Part shown: positions 1,732 through 21,200 of the stretch, one piece after another
How the letters are laid out: each line of letters opens with the position of its first letter
Numbering within the stretch: position 1 is the stretch's first letter
Source of the DNA: Gammaproteobacteria bacterium
GTDB lineage: Bacteria > Pseudomonadota > Gammaproteobacteria > JAABTG01
Direction: 5' to 3'
Length of the DNA stretch: 51,889 nt
NCBI GenBank assembly: GCA_017999615.1
Contig: JAGNLM010000013.1
Span: 1 to 51,889 of the forward strand
Made by a program: the position numbers and the translations under genes
Notes under the pieces: model-generated
What the model saw: the letters and a program-made list of their open reading frames with translations, nothing else
Database searches by the model: none
Told to the model about the DNA's origin: nothing

Positions 1732-1912
1732 CAAAAAAACCTCCCGTGTCACCCCGGTTGCTCGGGGGAGCTGCGCGTCCTGGACCCTGGTGGCCTCTCG
1801 GCCCGGGGGGAAAACGGAGGACTGTCTTGTCTTCCAGGGATCGGCCATCACCCGTCCAACGAGTGGCCCGGAGAATGGTCTCCCGAGGTGGGTCACTCTT
1901 CGGGAGGTCGAG

Positions 1913-2194
1913 ATGGAAGCGGTCGCGGGGAAGGGCAAGCGTCGCAGTGTCGGGCAGCGCCGTGAGTTGCTCGCGCCTCAGCGCCAGAGCGGGTTGAGCG
2001 TGGCGGCGTTCTGCCGCGAGCGGTCGCTGAGCAGCGAGAGCTTCTACCGCTGGCGGCGCGAGGCCGAGGGGAGCGGTCCCGCGCCGGCGGAGCGCGCAGG
2101 GTTCATCGAGTGGGGGGCGCTCGGCCGGGAGGCCGAGTGGGACCTGGAGCTCGAGCTCGGGGGCGGGGTCGTTCTGCGCCTGAGACGCGCGTGA
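1913..2194 (+). CDS. tnpA: IS66 family accessory protein TnpA
   Basis: The 93-residue product contains the IS66 TnpA signature RRELLAPQRQSGLSVAAFCR followed by SLSSESFYRWRRE, a helix-turn-helix that binds the IS ends. I chose the ATG at 1913 because a GGGAGG ribosome site lies just upstream and the matching ORF in remnant B starts at the same base. The upstream open frame from 1721 is non-homologous leader. TGA of this gene is followed at once by the tnpB ATG, which is normal IS66 organisation. Confidence 0.85.
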   Translation: MEAVAGKGKRRSVGQRRELLAPQRQSGLSVAAFCRERSLSSESFYRWRREAEGSGPAPAERAGFIEWGALGREAEWDLELELGGGVVLRLRRA

Positions 2195-2356
2195 ATGTTC
2201 TTCCCCGAGGGACGGGTGCGGGTGTTCGTGTACGGACGCCCGGTGGACATGCGGCTCGGCTTCACCGGTCTCTACGCCTTGACCCGGCACGGGCTGCAGC
2301 AGGACCCGCTTGAGAGCGAGCATCCGACGTCGTTCTTCCGAGCGGCTCTACGTTGA
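2195..2356 (+). pseudogene. tnpB: IS66 TnpB fragment (C-terminally truncated)
   Basis: The 53-residue ORF begins MFFPEGRVRVFVYGRPVDMR and continues LGFTGLYALTRHGLQQDPL, the conserved TnpB N-terminus. Homology then breaks off at DPLESEHPTSFF and a stop follows. Full-length TnpB is about 115 residues. The break marks where the element was cut and joined to foreign sequence. Confidence 0.85.
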
Positions 2357-4043: not shown

Positions 4044-4229
4044 ATGGAGACCACGCTGACTACTCGACTCTGCGCGCACTGCGGCCAACCCTTCAAACCC
4101 CGCCCACAGGTTCCCGACCAAGCCTTCTGCTCCGCCCCTGAATGTCAGCGGGCTCGCAAGCGCGAATGGCAGAGGGTGAAACTCCAATCCGACCGGGCCT
4201 TGGTCCGGTGCAGCGAGTGCGCGCCATAG
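4044..4229 (+). pseudogene. Zinc-ribbon protein fragment, often found near transposons
   Basis: The 61-residue ORF has CAHCGQPFKPRP, then FCSAPECQRARKREWQRVK. This is a CxxC...CxxxxC zinc knuckle seen in short proteobacterial proteins that usually continue for about 100 more residues. Here the sequence loses that similarity after LQSDRAL and ends within 12 residues. I infer a 3' truncation. No function is known to me. Confidence 0.5.
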
Positions 4230-10120: not shown

Positions 10121-10840
10121 TCAGGATTGCCGACGGCGGCTGAAGCCGATTCCGGCGAGGCCGAGGCCGAGGAGCGCCAGCGTGGCAGGTTCCGGGACGG
10201 TGGGGGTACCGTTACCGGCCGTCGATATAGCGACGTTGTCGAAACGCTGACCGCGAGCGTCGGTACCGAAGCTACTCGAGAAGTCGTAGAGGCCGAAGTA
10301 GCCAGAGCTGAAGGTGCTGTCGACGAGGGTGGATTTGAGCACGCCATCCACGAAGGCCTGGTACGTGTTGCCCTGCACCTCCACCTTGAGCCGGTGGTTG
10401 CCGCCGCGTAACCCGAGGTCAGGGGTGTTCTCATACACCTGCCAGCCATTGAGCCCGACGTCATTCTGGACGACATGCCAGTACAGGCCATCGCCACTTC
10501 CGACGCCCCCTCCCGTGATGAGCATCACGCCGCTCGCCTGGCCACCGGCGTAGGAGCTGCGCAGGCACACGCCACCGTCATGCCAAACGAGGACATTGAC
10601 TTCGACCGTGAAGTCCGTCAGCAGCGCAGTGTTGGCCTGAGTGTACGTAGTAGGGTTATTGCTCGGCGATACCGCGTCATACGTGCCGTCGAGGATCCGC
10701 CAGCTGCCGCGCTCGTTGTTCCATTTCGACGGGTCCCCACTGAAGTCTTCAGAGAAAATCACGCCGGCGATAGCGCCCCCGCTGAGTCCTGCGCACAACA
10801 GTCCGACCACCAGGTGTAGCGTCAGCTTCGTTGCCTTCAC
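10121..10840 (-). CDS. PEP-CTERM protein 1 with LamG-like domain
   Basis: An exported 239-residue protein. It has a Sec signal (MKATKLTLHLVVGLLCAGLS... ending GGAIA). The body resembles the concanavalin/LamG-like beta-sandwich of sugar- or surface-binding proteins (FSEDFSGDPSKWNNERGSW, GGNHRLKVEVQGNTYQAFVD). The C-terminal sorting signal is VPEPATLALLGLGLAG followed by RRR. PEP-CTERM tails are cut and anchored by an exosortase in bacteria that make exopolysaccharide; no exosortase gene is in the window. The start at 10840 matches the signal peptide. Function beyond export is unknown. Confidence 0.88.
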   Translation of the reverse strand: MKATKLTLHLVVGLLCAGLSGGAIAGVIFSEDFSGDPSKWNNERGSWRILDGTYDAVSPSNNPTTYTQANTALLTDFTVEVNVLVWHDGGVCLRSSYAGGQASGVMLITGGGVGSGDGLYWHVVQNDVGLNGWQVYENTPDLGLRGGNHRLKVEVQGNTYQAFVDGVLKSTLVDSTFSSGYFGLYDFSSSFGTDARGQRFDNVAISTAGNGTPTVPEPATLALLGLGLAGIGFSRRRQS

Positions 10841-11392: not shown

Positions 11393-12061
11393 TCAAGCGT
11401 GACGCCGACGGCGCATGGCACCCAAGCTGGCAATGCCGACCCCTAAAAGCGCGAGAGAGGCCGGTTCAGGTACGCTGGCAACGTCGAACGCGCCGACGGT
11501 GATGCCGTGCCAATTCTCGTTGAGATCAGTGAAGGTAATGGACGTGTAGGTACCCGGCAACTTGATGATGCCATGCACCTCGCCACTACCGGAGAAGCCG
11601 GTACCCCCCGAATTGAGGACGGGCGTACCGCTCCCCCAATACCCGCCGCCGTAACTCAGGAACTCAATCGGAACTCCGAAATCAACGGTATTCCCGTTCC
11701 AACTGACGAGCGCGATCAGCGGATCGACCACGGCCTGGGAGAATGTGATGGTCTTCTGGCCGCCTGCATTCAGCGCAATGATATCGGATGTGGGGGGCGC
11801 ATTATCGACAGCAGCGCCGACATAGGGGCCGGATGGGTTCCAGTAGTTGATGCCACCACTTGTTTGTGCAAACGAGTATGCTCCGGCATAGGCGACGTTT
11901 ACAGTTTCTGCCCCGAAGGCAAGGGTACCCAGGACACCGGGTGCTGCAGCCGTGACGCTCGTCCAATCCGTCCAGGATACCGGCACGGCGGATGCGGGAG
12001 CGCTGAAGGCAGCGCTAAGCATTACCACGACAGCCAGGTTTTTCATGCTCTGAATCCTCAT
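11393..12061 (-). CDS. PEP-CTERM protein 2
   Basis: A 222-residue exported protein. The signal peptide begins MRIQSMKNLAVVVMLSAAFS and is cleaved after ASA. A beta-rich body includes QAVVDPLIALVSWNGNTVDF and GIIKLPGTYTSITFTDLNEN, with a carboxy sorting tag VPEPASLALLGVGIASLG and a basic tail RRRRH. The alternative start at the second methionine (12046) is equally possible. The FSQAVVDPLIAL...W motif resembles other PEP-CTERM proteins of unknown role. Expected location is the cell surface or biofilm matrix after exosortase processing. Confidence 0.85.
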   Translation of the reverse strand: MRIQSMKNLAVVVMLSAAFSAPASAVPVSWTDWTSVTAAAPGVLGTLAFGAETVNVAYAGAYSFAQTSGGINYWNPSGPYVGAAVDNAPPTSDIIALNAGGQKTITFSQAVVDPLIALVSWNGNTVDFGVPIEFLSYGGGYWGSGTPVLNSGGTGFSGSGEVHGIIKLPGTYTSITFTDLNENWHGITVGAFDVASVPEPASLALLGVGIASLGAMRRRRHA

Positions 12062-12803: not shown

Positions 12804-13610
12804 TCAGCGAGTCCGACGCCGGCTGAAGCCGAGACCAGCAAGGCCGAGCCCCAGGAGGGCGAGCGTAGCGGGCTCCGGCACCGAAGCAGGGGGGACCGGC
12901 GCCAACTTCAACGTCGAGGTGATATTGAAATTGGACTCCGACGTGTGCCGCTCTGCGAAAAAGATGTCAAGCGAATACTCCGTGTTCACTGCGAGGCCCT
13001 TTGCCAACAGCAACTCCTCCGAAAAGGAACTCGATGCGGCGCTGTGCACCCCGCCGAGGTCCATAACGAGTTTTCCGTCAACGAAGACCCACAGGTCGTC
13101 ATCACCGGTGAAGGCAAAGGAGTAGTCGTCGGCATCGACCTTTGGATTGTCGAAGGAGATGGTTCCCTCGAGATGCAGCGTAAAATGATAGTTGTGGACC
13201 CGGCCCTGGTTGCCGAAAAACTGCCCGTCAATCGGGAAGAACGAGGCACTGCTGTACTGGAACACCTCACTGCCGGGCGCAGTCTCTGGTACATCCAAGG
13301 AGAACGCCTGGCTGCCATTGACGCCAGCACTGTCGGTGTACCACTTCGGGAAGTTTGCGGCTGTCGTAGCACCGTAACCGTCAGCCGCGACATAGGTCGG
13401 AAGGCCGCTGGCGTTGAGCGTTGTACTGACCATTCCGGGCGTCAGGCCAGAGATCGTCCCCTCAAAGTCGCTCAGCCGCGTGCAGCTTCCCGTGATGTCC
13501 GGGGCGCAGAAGTCCCGAATCGTCCCTGTCAGCAAGACAGCGTTTGCCGCCGCGCTCATACCCAGCCCCAGCAGCAGGGCCGTCGCCACACCAAGCTTCT
13601 TTGCGTTCAT
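12804..13610 (-). CDS. PEP-CTERM protein 3 with fibro-slime domain
   Basis: A 268-residue exported protein. The signal MNAKKLGVATALLLGLGMSA ends near ANA. The fibro-slime domain first described in Dictyostelium and Fibrobacter surface proteins follows: LLTGTIRDFCAPD, FPKWYTDSAGVNG, HNYHFTLHLEG, AFTGDDDLWVFVDGKLVMDL and SLDIFFAERHTSES. The C-terminus is VPEPATLALLGLGLAGLG plus RRR. I chose ATG 13610, at the signal peptide, over upstream in-frame starts. The domain suggests carbohydrate or matrix binding outside the cell. Its tail is almost identical to that of PEP-CTERM protein 1, and the 3' flanks match, pointing to duplication. Confidence 0.88.
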   Translation of the reverse strand: MNAKKLGVATALLLGLGMSAAANAVLLTGTIRDFCAPDITGSCTRLSDFEGTISGLTPGMVSTTLNASGLPTYVAADGYGATTAANFPKWYTDSAGVNGSQAFSLDVPETAPGSEVFQYSSASFFPIDGQFFGNQGRVHNYHFTLHLEGTISFDNPKVDADDYSFAFTGDDDLWVFVDGKLVMDLGGVHSAASSSFSEELLLAKGLAVNTEYSLDIFFAERHTSESNFNITSTLKLAPVPPASVPEPATLALLGLGLAGLGFSRRRTR

Positions 13611-13754
13611 CGTCGTAACCCTTCCCGATGCCACCCGAGCGGCAGCTTTCGCGAGATGCGTAGCAGAGTTCATGCCACGTGACGCAACCTGATGATGCAA
13701 AGAGCTTTCCATCTGGCGCCTAACAGGCGTCTGTAAGAGGCCTCAGATATCCTT

Positions 13755-13789
13755 GTGACGAGCGTCACACAGCGCCACGGAATGGCGCT
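13755..13789. other. Two adjacent inverted repeats upstream of the IS21 remnant
   Basis: GTGACG-AG-CGTCAC (13755-13768) is directly followed by AGCGCCA-cggaa-TGGCGCT (13771-13789). They lie between PEP-CTERM gene 3 and the IS21 fragment. They could be an operator plus terminator, or IS end structure; TGTCAGGCGACACGACACAC starts at the second repeat's edge and looks like an IS21-type end. Confidence 0.4.
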
Positions 13790-13859
13790 GTCAGGCGACA
13801 CGACACACTGACGCCCTGACGACACGAGGAATGGACCCCCTTCGCGGAAGGAGGTCCAA

Positions 13860-14219
13860 GTGAACGAAGAGGTCGGGCAAGCTCCCCGGTCCGAGTGGAA
13901 CGAGGGGAGGCAGGCGATGCAGACGCCTGAGGAGGTCCGGGCGATGCTCAAGCTGGCGTCGCTGGGTTGGGGTGCCAAGCGCATCGCCCGGGAGATGGGG
14001 TGCAGCCGCAACACCGTCAGGCGCTATCTGCGCCAGGGTGGCTGGCGGCCGTACCCTTCGCCGCAGCGTCCTGGGCCGCTGGCGGCCCTCACCGACTGGC
14101 TGGCGGCTACCTTCCGCCAGCATCGTGGCAGCTGCGACGTCGTGCGCCAGGAGTTGCAGCGCGAGCAGGGTGTCGTCGTCAGCCTGCGCACCATCGAGCG
14201 CGCCGTGGCGCATCTGTAA
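13860..14219 (+). pseudogene. istA: IS21-family IstA N-terminal fragment
   Basis: A GGAGG site precedes GTG 13860. The 119 residues include MQTPEEVRAMLKLASLGWGA, KRIAREMGCSRNTVRRYLRQ (the IstA helix-turn-helix) and VSLRTIERAVAHL. Full IstA is about 400-500 residues with a DDE core. Here the frame is cut at 14215 by the mini-IS66, whose terminal GTAA supplies the stop codon (CTG-TAA). IstB is absent. Confidence 0.85.
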
Positions 14220-14580
14220 CCGGTTCGTAGCCGGCGTCCTTCCGCCGACGGCGCCGGCCCGGAGAATGGCCTCCCGAGGTGGGTCACTCTTGGGGAGGTC
14301 GAGATGGCGGCGGTCGAGGGGAAAGGCAAGCATCGCAGCATCGTGCAGCGCCGTGAGTTGCTCGCGCGTCAGCGCCAGAGCGGGTTGAGCGTGGCGGCGT
14401 TCTGCCGCGAGCGGTCGCTGAGTAGCGAGAGCTTCTACCGCTGGCGGCGGGAGTTGGCGGGTACCGATGCCGCGCCGGCGGGGCTCGCGGAGCGCGCGGG
14501 TTTCATCGAGTTGGGGTCGCTTGGCAGTAACCGGTTCGTAGCCGGCGTCGGCGGAAGGACGCCGGCTACGAACCGGTTAC
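14216..14580 (+). mobile_element. Mini-IS66 (remnant B) with perfect 31-bp terminal inverted repeats
   Basis: The first 31 bases, starting GTAACCGGTTCGTAGCCGGC, recur exactly inverted at 14550-14580. IS66 elements typically begin GTAA. Between the ends lie the IS66 5' leader and a 3'-truncated tnpA. A second direct copy of the first 23 bases (14527-14549) abuts the right end, creating a 54-bp palindrome. The flanking 8-mers do not match, so no target duplication remains. The element interrupts istA. Confidence 0.85.
14304..14526 (+). pseudogene. tnpA: IS66 TnpA, C-terminally truncated
   Basis: The ORF shares RQRQSGLSVAAFCRERSLSS and FYRWRREL with remnant A and ends its homology at FIELGSLG, where it runs into the element's right-end palindrome. 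Translation continues through the palindrome as junk (SNRFVAGVGGRTPATNR) to 14675. Confidence 0.8.
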
Positions 14581-14651
14581 GGTCAAGCTACACGACGGCA
14601 CGGTCCCATCATCCGGCAACCGAGCCCCCGTGGTGCTGGTCTAATAATCGC

Positions 14652-15179
14652 TCACGGTATGAATCGAACCCATAACTCCTCCGCAGCGATCTGGATGTCA
14701 TGCCCCTTGGCCTTGTAGCCGAGGGCGGTCTCGATCTTCCTGCCGTGGCTGGTATGGACCCAGTCGCGGCTTGCCAACGTGCCAATGATGAGATAGCTCA
14801 GGTCGACGCTCACACGCTCGACCGGGATACCGCCGAGTTGCTCAATCGCGCTCTGGCACCGAGACCGTGGGCCATAGATGAATTTTCCGGTAAGACAGAA
14901 AGTGCGGCCCTCGAAGTTGACCGTCTCAAGCGGGTCGACCGGGAGGCGGGTCGCGAGACCTTCTGGCGACCCCGTTTCCTCCAAGGTTCCCCCCAGCATC
15001 TGCTTGAGGGTCTCCTGAAGGTCCTGGCGTTCCTCCTCAGTCACGAGTCCGTCAGCGAGCACGGATTCAACCCGTTGGGCAAGAATGTTGGCGGGCCAGT
15101 CCTTGGTCAGCTCTTCGTTCTGGCGAAGCCAGGTATGGAGAAACAGGATCTCCTGATCGCTCAGATGGGAGTCAGCCAT
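14652..15179 (-). CDS. BRCT-domain protein
   Basis: A 175-residue protein. An N-terminal helical, acidic segment (residues 1-75: DQEILFLHTWLRQNEEL, LADGLVTEEERQDLQETL) precedes a BRCT domain of the bacterial DNA-ligase type (about 88-170: FEGRTFCLTGKFIYGPRSRC, LSYLIIGTLASRDWVHTSHG, ALGYKAKGHDIQIAAEELW). BRCT domains bind DNA ends or phosphopeptides; there is no ligase or nuclease domain here. Similar stand-alone proteins occur in many proteobacteria without a proven role. It sits downstream of a 30-codon ORF and a palindromic operator, between IS relics and cas3. A defence or repair link is only guessed from position. Confidence 0.82.
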   Translation of the reverse strand: MADSHLSDQEILFLHTWLRQNEELTKDWPANILAQRVESVLADGLVTEEERQDLQETLKQMLGGTLEETGSPEGLATRLPVDPLETVNFEGRTFCLTGKFIYGPRSRCQSAIEQLGGIPVERVSVDLSYLIIGTLASRDWVHTSHGRKIETALGYKAKGHDIQIAAEELWVRFIP

Positions 15180-15635: not shown

Positions 15636-18221
15636 TCACCAGTGAAGTCCGCGCTCTGAATCGTAGGAGATGACCAGTGGTCTTTGGCGTTTTCCTCCTC
15701 CCGTCAGGACGGTGCCCTGCCACTGGTCCGCTTGGCGCTGGAGCGGCAGCAGGGTCTGCCAAGCTGGCACCGGAACCCGCGCGGCCGCCGCGCGGAGGAG
15801 CAGATCCGCCAGTGGCACTTCGGCCACCACATGCGCGCGCACCGAGACCGCGGAGTTCGCCCATGGGTGTCGCGGATGATCGGTCATGGGGGCGAGTGTC
15901 GTGCCATCCCACCTTGCGAGAACCAGCACTCGCGTCGGTTCGCCGAGGCGCGTGGGCGTCATTTCGTCCCGCCAGTAGTCTGTCTCGCCGACTCGGTAAC
16001 TTCCGGAAAGCGGGAGTGCGTTCAATGCACCGAGAGCCGCAGAAGTCTTCGCCTCGCCCTCGACTCGCCGGGAGACCGCAGCGAGGGCCGGAGGCACTGC
16101 CTCGAGCACCTGAGCCCCATAGACGGACTCCATGAGTCGGCGCGCATCGGCCGGCATGCGGAGCTCACCTGAGGACAGCAGGCTCGACGTGAGCCAGAGT
16201 CGGCCCCAGTCGGGGTAGACCCGAGAGGTGCCGCTGTTCCCATCGAGCCAATGCGTGTCCGCGTCGCTGCGAGGCAATGGACCGTGGAGAACGAGGGTGG
16301 GGACCCCGCGGTCCCCGCGGCGGTGGCGATGGAGACGGCCCGCGCGCTGGACCACCAAGTCGATGGGCGCGAGGTCGGTGGCCATCAGGTCAAAGTCGAG
16401 ATCAAGGCTCTGCTCGACCACCTGGGTCGCGACGAGGACCTGTCCCCGGCGCAACCCCTGGGTGCTCTCCTTGCCGAAGCGCAAGAGCACATCCTGCTCC
16501 ACGGCGAGGCGGTCGCCGAGGGTGAAGCGCGCATGGAACAACTGAACCCGCGCACCGAGGACGGGTTTCAGCGCGTCATAGGCTTCGAGAGCATCCCGGA
16601 CGGTGTTTCGGACCCAGCAGGCGCATCCACCTTCCCGTGCGGTCGCCAGGAGGTGGCCCATGACCGCGTCCCGCTCCGGCTCGCAGACCACCTTTACCGT
16701 GCGAACCAACTCCGGGCGGGTCGCCAGTGGCATCTCCTCGACACCCGAGGTGCCCACCCGGGTGGCCAAGGGGTAGCTGTTGGCGGTGAGCGATAGAGGG
16801 GCGGCCCCACGACCCCGCCGCCAGGCACCGACAAGCTCCTTCCGCTGCGCGGTCGGCATCGTGGCGGACATCAACACGACGGAGCCACCGGCGCGGGCAT
16901 GCAGTTCCAGGAGGGTCGCGAGCACTCGGGTCATGTAGGCGTCGTAGGCGTGGACTTCGTCCACCACCAGCACCTTGCCCAGCAACCCCAGCAGCCGCAG
17001 CGCCCCGTGTCGAGCATGCAGGGCCGCAAGCAGCGCCTGGTCCACGGTTCCCACCCCAACCGGCGAAAGCAGGGCTCGACGGTTGGAGTCAGCCAGCCAG
17101 GCGCTCGCCCGCGCCGTCGCTGATTCGGGCTCCCCGCTGGCATCCTGCAACTCCACCAGCGCCCGGTTGCCGTGGGTCAGGATCAGCGAGGGGGTCTCCG
17201 CGAAGAGTTGCGTGTAGCAATGCCGGATGCGACCGTAGAGGGCGTTGGCGGTTGCCATGGTCGGGAGTGCCCAAAAGAGCCCGTGGGCAATGCCAGCGGC
17301 CATCCAGCGGTGTGCTGCGAGGAGCGCCGCCTCGGTCTTGCCAGCGCCCGTCAAGTCCTCGATGACGAGCAGTTGAGGCTCCAGCGCAACCCGAGTCCGC
17401 TCGACATAGGCCTGCAGGGGCGTCGGGGCCCAGCCCGGAAACAATCCGCTGAACGGGGTTTCCTGGGCGGGGGGTACCGGCAAGCCTCCGAATCGTGCAA
17501 CCGCGGTCTCGGCTGCCGCCTGCGCCCGTGCCCAGTAAGCATGCAAGGGCATCGACTCCGTGCAGTACGGGAACCACTCACTGTTGGAACCCAGCCAGTC
17601 GGCCAGGACGGCGAGGCCCGCGAGCCACCACGAGGCCCGCTCCGCGGCCGTGATAGCCTCCAATGGGTCCCCCGACGGAAACGCGCGGGGGGACACGAAG
17701 AGGCCGTCTATGGCCCGGATGAATGCCTGGCTGGCCTGCAGGTCCTCAGCGGTGTAGTGCTGGTCCACCCTCACCCGGCGCATGCCCTGTCCCTGGCTGG
17801 GGGGCTGGCCGTGATGCCCCGTGACGCAACGGGCCCATACGTCGAGCCACTCGGCCCTTTCCGGTTTGGCCGTTATCCGGGCACGAAGCTCATTCTGCCA
17901 GAGGACCCAGCCGAGGCTGTCGTGGCGAACACTGTAAGCGTGAGGCGTGCGCTCGCGTCCTAGGTGCCGGGAGAGTGCCGGAAGTTGATTCTGAAAAGCG
18001 GCACTGAACTTTCCGATGTCATGAAGCGCGAGAAACCACCGTGCCCATGACTGAAGGCTCTCCCCGGACAGGCCAAGAAGTGTGGCTAGCGTTTGGCCCA
18101 GGGGCTGGTGGCGCCGCAACAGTTCCTGCCCACACGCGGCGACGTCGAGGGCATGGTAAACGAGGAGGTGCGCGGGCGAACCCGCCTCACCCCCTCGAGC
18201 TTTCCCCCAGTAGCGGAACAT
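15636..18221 (-). CDS. cas3: CRISPR-associated helicase/nuclease Cas3 (type I-E)
   Basis: Cas3 is recruited by Cascade to the R-loop, then nicks and degrades target DNA. The 861-residue protein has an N-terminal HD nuclease domain (LALHDIGKFSAAFQNQ, TGHHGQPP), then a superfamily-2 helicase. Walker A is EDLTGAGKTEAALL, the DExH box VLVVDEVHAYD, motif III VVLMSATMP, and motif VI VQRAGRLHRHRRGD. A Cas3 C-terminal domain follows. AAGG precedes ATG 18221. It lies on the far side of the array from the other cas genes, only 41 bp past the last degenerate repeat. It is therefore transcribed either by read-through from the array or from a promoter inside the array end. Confidence 0.96.
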   Translation of the reverse strand: MFRYWGKARGGEAGSPAHLLVYHALDVAACGQELLRRHQPLGQTLATLLGLSGESLQSWARWFLALHDIGKFSAAFQNQLPALSRHLGRERTPHAYSVRHDSLGWVLWQNELRARITAKPERAEWLDVWARCVTGHHGQPPSQGQGMRRVRVDQHYTAEDLQASQAFIRAIDGLFVSPRAFPSGDPLEAITAAERASWWLAGLAVLADWLGSNSEWFPYCTESMPLHAYWARAQAAAETAVARFGGLPVPPAQETPFSGLFPGWAPTPLQAYVERTRVALEPQLLVIEDLTGAGKTEAALLAAHRWMAAGIAHGLFWALPTMATANALYGRIRHCYTQLFAETPSLILTHGNRALVELQDASGEPESATARASAWLADSNRRALLSPVGVGTVDQALLAALHARHGALRLLGLLGKVLVVDEVHAYDAYMTRVLATLLELHARAGGSVVLMSATMPTAQRKELVGAWRRGRGAAPLSLTANSYPLATRVGTSGVEEMPLATRPELVRTVKVVCEPERDAVMGHLLATAREGGCACWVRNTVRDALEAYDALKPVLGARVQLFHARFTLGDRLAVEQDVLLRFGKESTQGLRRGQVLVATQVVEQSLDLDFDLMATDLAPIDLVVQRAGRLHRHRRGDRGVPTLVLHGPLPRSDADTHWLDGNSGTSRVYPDWGRLWLTSSLLSSGELRMPADARRLMESVYGAQVLEAVPPALAAVSRRVEGEAKTSAALGALNALPLSGSYRVGETDYWRDEMTPTRLGEPTRVLVLARWDGTTLAPMTDHPRHPWANSAVSVRAHVVAEVPLADLLLRAAAARVPVPAWQTLLPLQRQADQWQGTVLTGGGKRQRPLVISYDSERGLHW

Positions 18222-18262: not shown

Positions 18263-21200
18263 ACTTCTATCCCCGCCTGCGCGGGGAACACTACAACGAT
18301 TCTGGTGCGGAAGCACAGAGTCCCGGTCGATCCCTGCGTGCTGGTTCATCCTCCGGTCCATCCCCGCGTGCGCGGGGAACACCCGGGCGGATTTGATAGT
18401 GCCCCTCGCGGCCCTCGGTCCATCCCCGCGTGCGCGGGGAACACGCAATGCAAGGCGCCGCACCCGCGGCGGGCGTTACGGTCCATCCCCGCGTGCGCGG
18501 GGAACACTCGAGGGCCGGGCCCGCGCAATCGCGGCGCTGCCGGTCCATCCCCGCGTGCGCGGGGAACACCGGCTGCGCCCCCGAGGGCTCGGTTTCGTTC
18601 TACGGTCCATCCCCGCGTGCGCGGGGAACACGATGCCGTAGCGGTCGCGCAGCTCGTCCGCCAGCGGTCCATCCCCGCGTGCGCGGGGAACACGAATTGG
18701 TATGGATCGACAGACAACGCAACCGCGGTCCATCCCCGCGTGCGCGGGGAACACCCTGGCGAGCGCTTCAACAGCAGACGCGCCGCCCGGTCCATCCCCG
18801 CGTGCGCGGGGAACACCCTAACATCTGCGAGCGCTATGCAAAAATTTTCGGTCCATCCCCGCGTGCGCGGGGAACACTTGTCTTACTTTGCAACACGGGG
18901 CGGAACTACACGGTCCATCCCCGCGTGCGCGGGGAACACGACCTCAGCCTGACGCCGGACGAGAGCGCCTTCGGTCCATCCCCGCGTGCGCGGGGAACAC
19001 GGCCCCGACGGCGGGTTCGCCGTGCCTCCGGACGGTCCATCCCCGCGTGCGCGGGGAACACGACGTCGAGCGCCTTGATCGTGTCCGGCAGGCCGGTCCA
19101 TCCCCGCGTGCGCGGGGAACACGTGAGGCAGTACCTCGCCAAGAGGGGTGCGAGCGGTCCATCCCCGCGTGCGCGGGGAACACGTATCCGCCGCGCCTCT
19201 CGCTCTCCGACGGAGCCCGGTCCATCCCCGCGTGCGCGGGGAACACCCCACGTCAACAGCCCATAGAAAAAGGCCCCCATGGTCCATCCCCGCGTGCGCG
19301 GGGAACACCTCGGCAACCTCACCTCGGTTCAAACCCGCGACGGTCCATCCCCGCGTGCGCGGGGAACACCCCCCCTGGAAGCGTCTTGACTGGGCTTGTC
19401 TCGGTCCATCCCCGCGTGCGCGGGGAACACTTTTGCGCCTTTGCCTCCTTCGTTAGCCTCGACCGGTCCATCCCCGCGTGCGCGGGGAACACTTCTGCGG
19501 CGGAGTCTGGTTGGAGTCGGACTGCGGTCCATCCCCGCGTGCGCGGGGAACACGATTCGACGGTTTGGCGCTATCCGGCTGAGCTGGGTCCATCCCCGCG
19601 TGCGCGGGGAACACCGAACGCCCCCCTGTAAACCGTCTTTAGTGGGCGGTCCATCCCCGCGTGCGCGGGGAACACCCTGAAGACCACCAAGGACGCCGGA
19701 ATGGACGCGGTCCATCCCCGCGTGCGCGGGGAACACGAGCTGCCGAGCCTCGAGGACTGGCGGAGTTATGGTCCATCCCCGCGTGCGCGGGGAACACCTG
19801 GGCGAGCTTCTCGACGCCGGCGGCGCCGTCCGGTCCATCCCCGCGTGCGCGGGGAACACTGCACTTGCTTGGGCACCGACTCCTCGGCTGCCGGTCCATC
19901 CCCGCGTGCGCGGGGAACACGCTGCCACCTAGCCATAGTTGCCCTCCGCGACCGGTCCATCCCCGCGTGCGCGGGGAACACCCGAGCCGATGCGCTTGGC
20001 GACATCCAGGAAGGCGGTCCATCCCCGCGTGCGCGGGGAACACCAGCAAGGGTAAGTACCTCACGCTGGATCCGACCGGTCCATCCCCGCGTGCGCGGGG
20101 AACACGTCGCAACTCGCCTTCCTCATGGCGCACCCGATCGGTCCATCCCCGCGTGCGCGGGGAACACTGCAACGTGCCTTCCGACATCAGCTGGGAGGAC
20201 GGTCCATCCCCGCGTGCGCGGGGAACACGTTGCGGACCATCCCCACCTTGGCCATGCGGAAGGTCCATCCCCGCGTGCGCGGGGAACACGCGCGTCCATG
20301 TCGCGAGGCGGATGCCGGAGTTCGGTCCATCCCCGCGTGCGCGGGGAACACGTCATGTCGCGCACTGAGATGCTGAGCATGTTCGGTCCATCCCCGCGTG
20401 CGCGGGGAACACGTTGCTGCGGGCGGCGCAGGCGACCGAAAAGGGCGGTCCATCCCCGCGTGCGCGGGGAACACGTAGGACTGGAAGGAGTATCCGGCCG
20501 GCAGCACGGTCCATCCCCGCGTGCGCGGGGAACACCATGCCGGACCTGCAAGCGCGGCTGACCTCGGCCGGTCCATCCCCGCGTGCGCGGGGAACACAAG
20601 ACTGGTACGCGCAGAGGTACGTCTGATGGCGGTCCATCCCCGCGTGCGCGGGGAACACGTGTCCAGATAGTCCAGGTCTGCGGCCGAGAGCGGTCCATCC
20701 CCGCGTGCGCGGGGAACACGCATCCGCCGCGCCACGCTGACCGGCACGGTGAGCGGTCCATCCCCGCGTGCGCGGGGAACACCCCGACATCTGCGATAGG
20801 TACGCGAAGTTGTTCGGTCCATCCCCGCGTGCGCGGGGAACACGCGCCGCTGTTGCCGGTCGCGTTGGCGCCGGACGGTCCATCCCCGCGTGCGCGGGGA
20901 ACACTGACCCACTAACCGTCTTTCCGTCCGGTATAGCCGGTCCATCCCCGCGTGCGCGGGGAACACTAACTGAGGGCTAGTGCGATGGCAAAGCAGTCGC
21001 GGTCCATCCCCGCGTGCGCGGGGAACACAGCGCGCCCTTCCGAGGCACAGCAGGATTTCACGGTCCATCCCCGCGTGCGCGGGGAACACGCGCACCTTGT
21101 AGGTCCGCCCGTCGCTGTCGAAGGTCCATCCCCGCGTGCGCGGGGAACACTTTGTTCTGTGGGGCGGGAGGGCTCACGCACAGCGGTCCATCCCCGCGTG

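Follow-up and report, generated by a model that had tools for sequence, protein, structure and literature searches.

The 365-bp unit at 14216–14580 is a dead, internally deleted remnant of an IS66-family element. In the reading that we favor, to which we give a probability of roughly 0.7, its left end lies in an older remnant of an IS21 istA gene and its right end has been rebuilt as a palindrome. The window, that is the whole 51 889-nucleotide stretch analysed, is the entire contig C13 of a genome assembled in 21 contigs (2.47 Mb, completeness 98.98%). The unit is real, and its coordinates and length had been given correctly in the original prediction. The features on which the description rests are as follows.

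13789–14215, plus strand: IS21-family remnant consisting of the left end and an N-terminal istA stub (NF033546; open reading frame 13860–14219, likely start 13917).
14216–14250, plus strand: IS66 left inverted end, 35 bp, starting with GTAA; a perfect inverted repeat of 14546–14580.
14304–14526, plus strand: IS66 tnpA stub of 74 codons with the C-terminus cut off (NF047593 profile match).
14527–14580, no strand: 54-bp palindrome; each arm has 23 bp, and the 8-nt loop, GGCGGAAG, is at 14550–14557 (from folding and a palindrome scan).
14527–14549, plus strand: additional copy, in inverted orientation, of the outermost 23 bp of the IS end, extending to the exact terminal base.
14546–14580, minus strand: IS66 right inverted end, 35 bp, of which the outer 31 bp (14550–14580) lie outside the extra copy.
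1865–2355, plus strand: a second IS66 remnant, relic B, with a whole tnpA (1910–2194) and a tnpB stub (2195–2355); its left end is missing the first 40 bp.

The tnpA stub scores 49.0 bits against the NCBIfam model NF047593 (IS66_ISAeme5_TnpA), above the cut-off of 28, and so represents the IS66-type accessory TnpA protein; a tnpA stub had been predicted originally. GTAA at the outer ends is a defining mark of the IS66 family. The unit carries inverted ends that start with GTAA and are perfect over 35 bp (37 of 38 positions if extended); that they were perfect had been recognized, with the length underestimated at 31 bp. Neither tnpB nor tnpC, which encodes the DDE transposase, is present within the unit, as had also been noted, and because both are absent the unit is a remnant and not a working member of the family.

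A class-wide TnpA search gave matches in 33 of 369 genomes, and nine regions were retrieved. Three of these (L081, L083 and L088) have GTAAGCG inverted ends, a fourth (L080) has the GTAAGCG left end only and the remaining five show no GTAA inverted ends. L083 is flanked by an 8-bp duplication, GACAAACA. The left ends of the relatives are located an estimated 55–91 bp upstream of tnpA, and in the 365-bp unit GTAA is 88 bp upstream of the tnpA ATG. When the outer 27 bp are compared with the left ends of the four relatives, 42 of 92 positions beyond GTAA agree, a level reached by 0.9% of shuffles (joint P of 0.009); L088 taken alone agrees at seven of 23 positions (P = 0.58) and lends no support. 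The agreement of the ends is modest. L088 also carries two right-end-like sequences, at 4199 and 4317, which are 118 bp apart and perhaps represent a nested copy.

Relic B is 87% identical in DNA to the unit over 14256–14525. Beyond the shared part it runs on into the complete C-terminus of tnpA and then into the tnpB stub, and this continuation therefore shows where the element at 14216 was cut. Its homology starts 40 bp into the left end, 2 bp past the 38-bp inverted repeat, so that relic B provides no independent confirmation of the 38 bp as a native end. It shows that IS66 decay has also occurred elsewhere on the same contig. Further observations were made in the window by eye from the list of open reading frames. 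A long CRISPR-like repeat array (translated as SIPACAGNT/HPRVRGEH) extends over 18291–20561 and beyond and adjoins a cas3-like frame on the minus strand (15636–18221), and three closely spaced minus-strand frames (10121–10840, 11393–12061 and 12804–13712) end in VPEPA(T/S)LALLG...RRR tails resembling PEP-CTERM signals.

On the left, the unit abuts the istA stub, for which NF033546 (IS21) is the best of five families, at 43.9 bits, but below the cut-off of 160. The first 224 bp of the IS21 remnant have a 92% identical copy on contig C9, and a distant relative is located close to one end of C1. The element that the left end of the IS66 entered, or to which it was joined, is thus itself broken in both of the close copies. 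The open istA frame (13860–14219) is closed by the TAA within the GTAA of the left end, in agreement with the proposal that the element supplies the istA stop. An insertion in istA had been proposed as well. This holds for the left flank only; no continuation of istA follows on the right, where the similarity of 14581–14651 to the IS21 stub and to tnpA does not exceed that of shuffles. An inverted tnpA copy in the right flank was considered and rejected on the same result. The next gene rightward (14652–15179, minus strand) has its own stop intact, as judged by eye, and encodes a small lone protein with a BRCT-like domain related, with weak scores, to the C-terminus of NAD-dependent ligases. 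No Rfam families were detected in 13700–14800.

A target duplication of 8 bp is given for two IS66 elements in PMC3281130. No 8-bp duplication surrounds the unit, whose flanks (GCGCATCT and GGTCAAGC) share three of eight bases, so that nothing in this copy indicates transposition of the unit as it now stands.

According to the original prediction, the unit is a mini-IS66 that a full IS66 could move in trans, like a MITE. Its small size and the intactness of both ends over 35 bp are what such an element would have. The search of the genome for copies of the ends and for a full IS66 partner, set beforehand as the test, returned neither: with up to three mismatches allowed, the 23-bp end occurs in the 2.47-Mb assembly only within the unit, and a DNA search gave no further copy of the unit in its own genome. 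No match to DDE_Tnp_IS66 (PF03050, TnpC) was obtained in the 21 contigs, in which loss to a gap is possible, and the only TnpB in the genome is the stub of relic B, which is below the cut-off. Repeated IS copies can drop out in assembly gaps.

The wider searches gave the same picture. Exact matches to the end were absent from genome_contigs and from viral contigs. With two mismatches, the end pattern occurs in nine of 398 genomes of the phylum besides its own; a reversed-pattern control gave about 14, as counted by eye, so there is no excess. A parent element was found neither in the same genome nor in 95 near genomes, nor in 369 genomes of the class searched with relic B DNA, nor in the 398 phylum genomes (by pattern), genome_contigs, viral contigs and plasmids (by DNA and protein). 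A TnpA scan of genome_contigs yielded 14 distant relatives, mostly Acidobacteriota by title; among these and six class loci (20 loci in all, several of them short or truncated at the edge of a contig) no GTAA-ended pair reached 16 of 24 matches. Among the titles listed by a literature search, none concerned an IS66 MITE; absence from print is not claimed. MITEs are recognized by several copies with common ends and by a partner transposase in the same cell. Here there is one copy, and the assembly holds no IS66 TnpC, although it may have fallen into a gap. Together with the missing target duplication, the lack of exact end matches in the contig collections and a phylum count no higher than its control, this makes an element movable in trans very unlikely, and that part of the original prediction is not supported.

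The right end is the most unusual part of the unit. The palindrome that had been ascribed to an extra inverted end was confirmed at 14527–14580 with a 23 + 8 + 23 architecture. Its folding energy as a single strand is −31.2 kcal/mol, compared with −10.9 kcal/mol for shuffles (z of −11). The 23-mer of its arm is matched three times within the window and never in 100 shuffles. Along the minus strand, the sequence of the right end is GTAACC...GGCGTC-CTTCCGCC-GACG, after which it turns back as the complement of the 19 bases with which it began. The extra arm joins the full right end across the CGTC/GACG tetranucleotide, with GACG pairing with CGTC around the loop, and the returning strand halts exactly at the terminal base, adjoining the broken tnpA. 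A rearrangement scar is the most likely reading of the palindrome.

Some library methods are known to generate fold-back chimeras as artefacts, and an origin of the structure in assembly or amplification has to be weighed. The window contains no second palindrome with perfect arms of at least 14 bp and a spacer of at most 20 nt, and across ten 20-kb samples from the genome there are two such palindromes, with 15-bp arms, and none longer; with nothing comparable in the rest of the window or in these samples, we regard an artefact as highly improbable.

We infer the following order of events. A full IS66 element would have entered istA, after which a deletion would have removed late tnpA through tnpB and tnpC and, with them, the original right flank. 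Because that flank went with the deletion, no target duplication would be expected, nor any further part of istA. The right end would then have been remade as the palindrome, most likely when a broken or nicked strand bearing it folded back via its own GACG/CGTC tetranucleotides and was copied until GTAA, its 5′ terminus, was reached; the product would have become joined to the broken tnpA. This account is supported by the TnpA model score, the relatives with GTAAGCG ends and the likeness of their left ends to the outer 27 bp, the absence of a target duplication and of istA rightward, the single copy without TnpC, the IS66 decay evident in relic B, and the extra arm, which stops at the very terminus of the IS and adjoins the right end across CGTC/GACG. 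Against it stand the silence of relic B on the native end and the modest agreement of the ends, with none beyond GTAA in L088; the fold-back step is conjectural. The account also leaves unexplained that the flanks of the palindrome are alike in the inverted sense at six of eight positions (a post hoc comparison, with a chance of about 0.01).

The palindrome follows directly from fold-back synthesis at a broken end, and an identical sequence would result from a nested element followed by a CGTC micro-homology deletion, so that the sequence fits both equally. In the latter case, one IS66 would have inserted into the tnpA of another at 14527 and, through a micro-homology deletion at 4 bp (CGTC), been reduced to its two ends; an adjacent deletion would have taken the right side of the inner copy and the outer element. 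The exact GTAA terminus on both sides of the palindrome and the CGTC common to the inner junction accord with such a pair; it requires more steps, and no direct duplication surrounds the 54-bp unit (two of eight positions alike), which leaves it unlikely.

Returning to fold-back, the fact that the extra arm stops exactly on the terminal base suggests, in this one case, that a cut at the IS end took part. A more specific version, in which the transposase cut at the terminal GTAA and the palindrome is the trapped product of that cleavage, folded back and copied to the 5′ tip, is a doubtful proposition at present; if true, the palindrome would be a sequence record of the hairpin healing of an excised IS66 end. 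Recurrence of exact-terminus palindromes at other IS66 ends would hint at healing of cut ends, of which there is one example here. Overall, the locus is a case of commonplace IS decay, with a tidy scar that looks like fold-back. It documents IS66 and IS21 decay in one place, and its value is mostly housekeeping.

The unit looks like ordinary genome debris and not a new mobile element, and illustrates that perfect inverted ends by themselves do not make a mobile mini-element. Like IS-derived MITEs it is short and non-autonomous and retains both inverted ends; unlike them it is single, has no partner transposase in the assembly and gives no sign of mobilization. From IS66 elements of the ISAeme5 type (NF047593) it differs in the loss of tnpB and tnpC, the missing 8-bp target duplication and the palindromic right end, and it shares with them a tnpA stub above the curated cut-off, ends that start with GTAA and the usual distance from the left end to tnpA.
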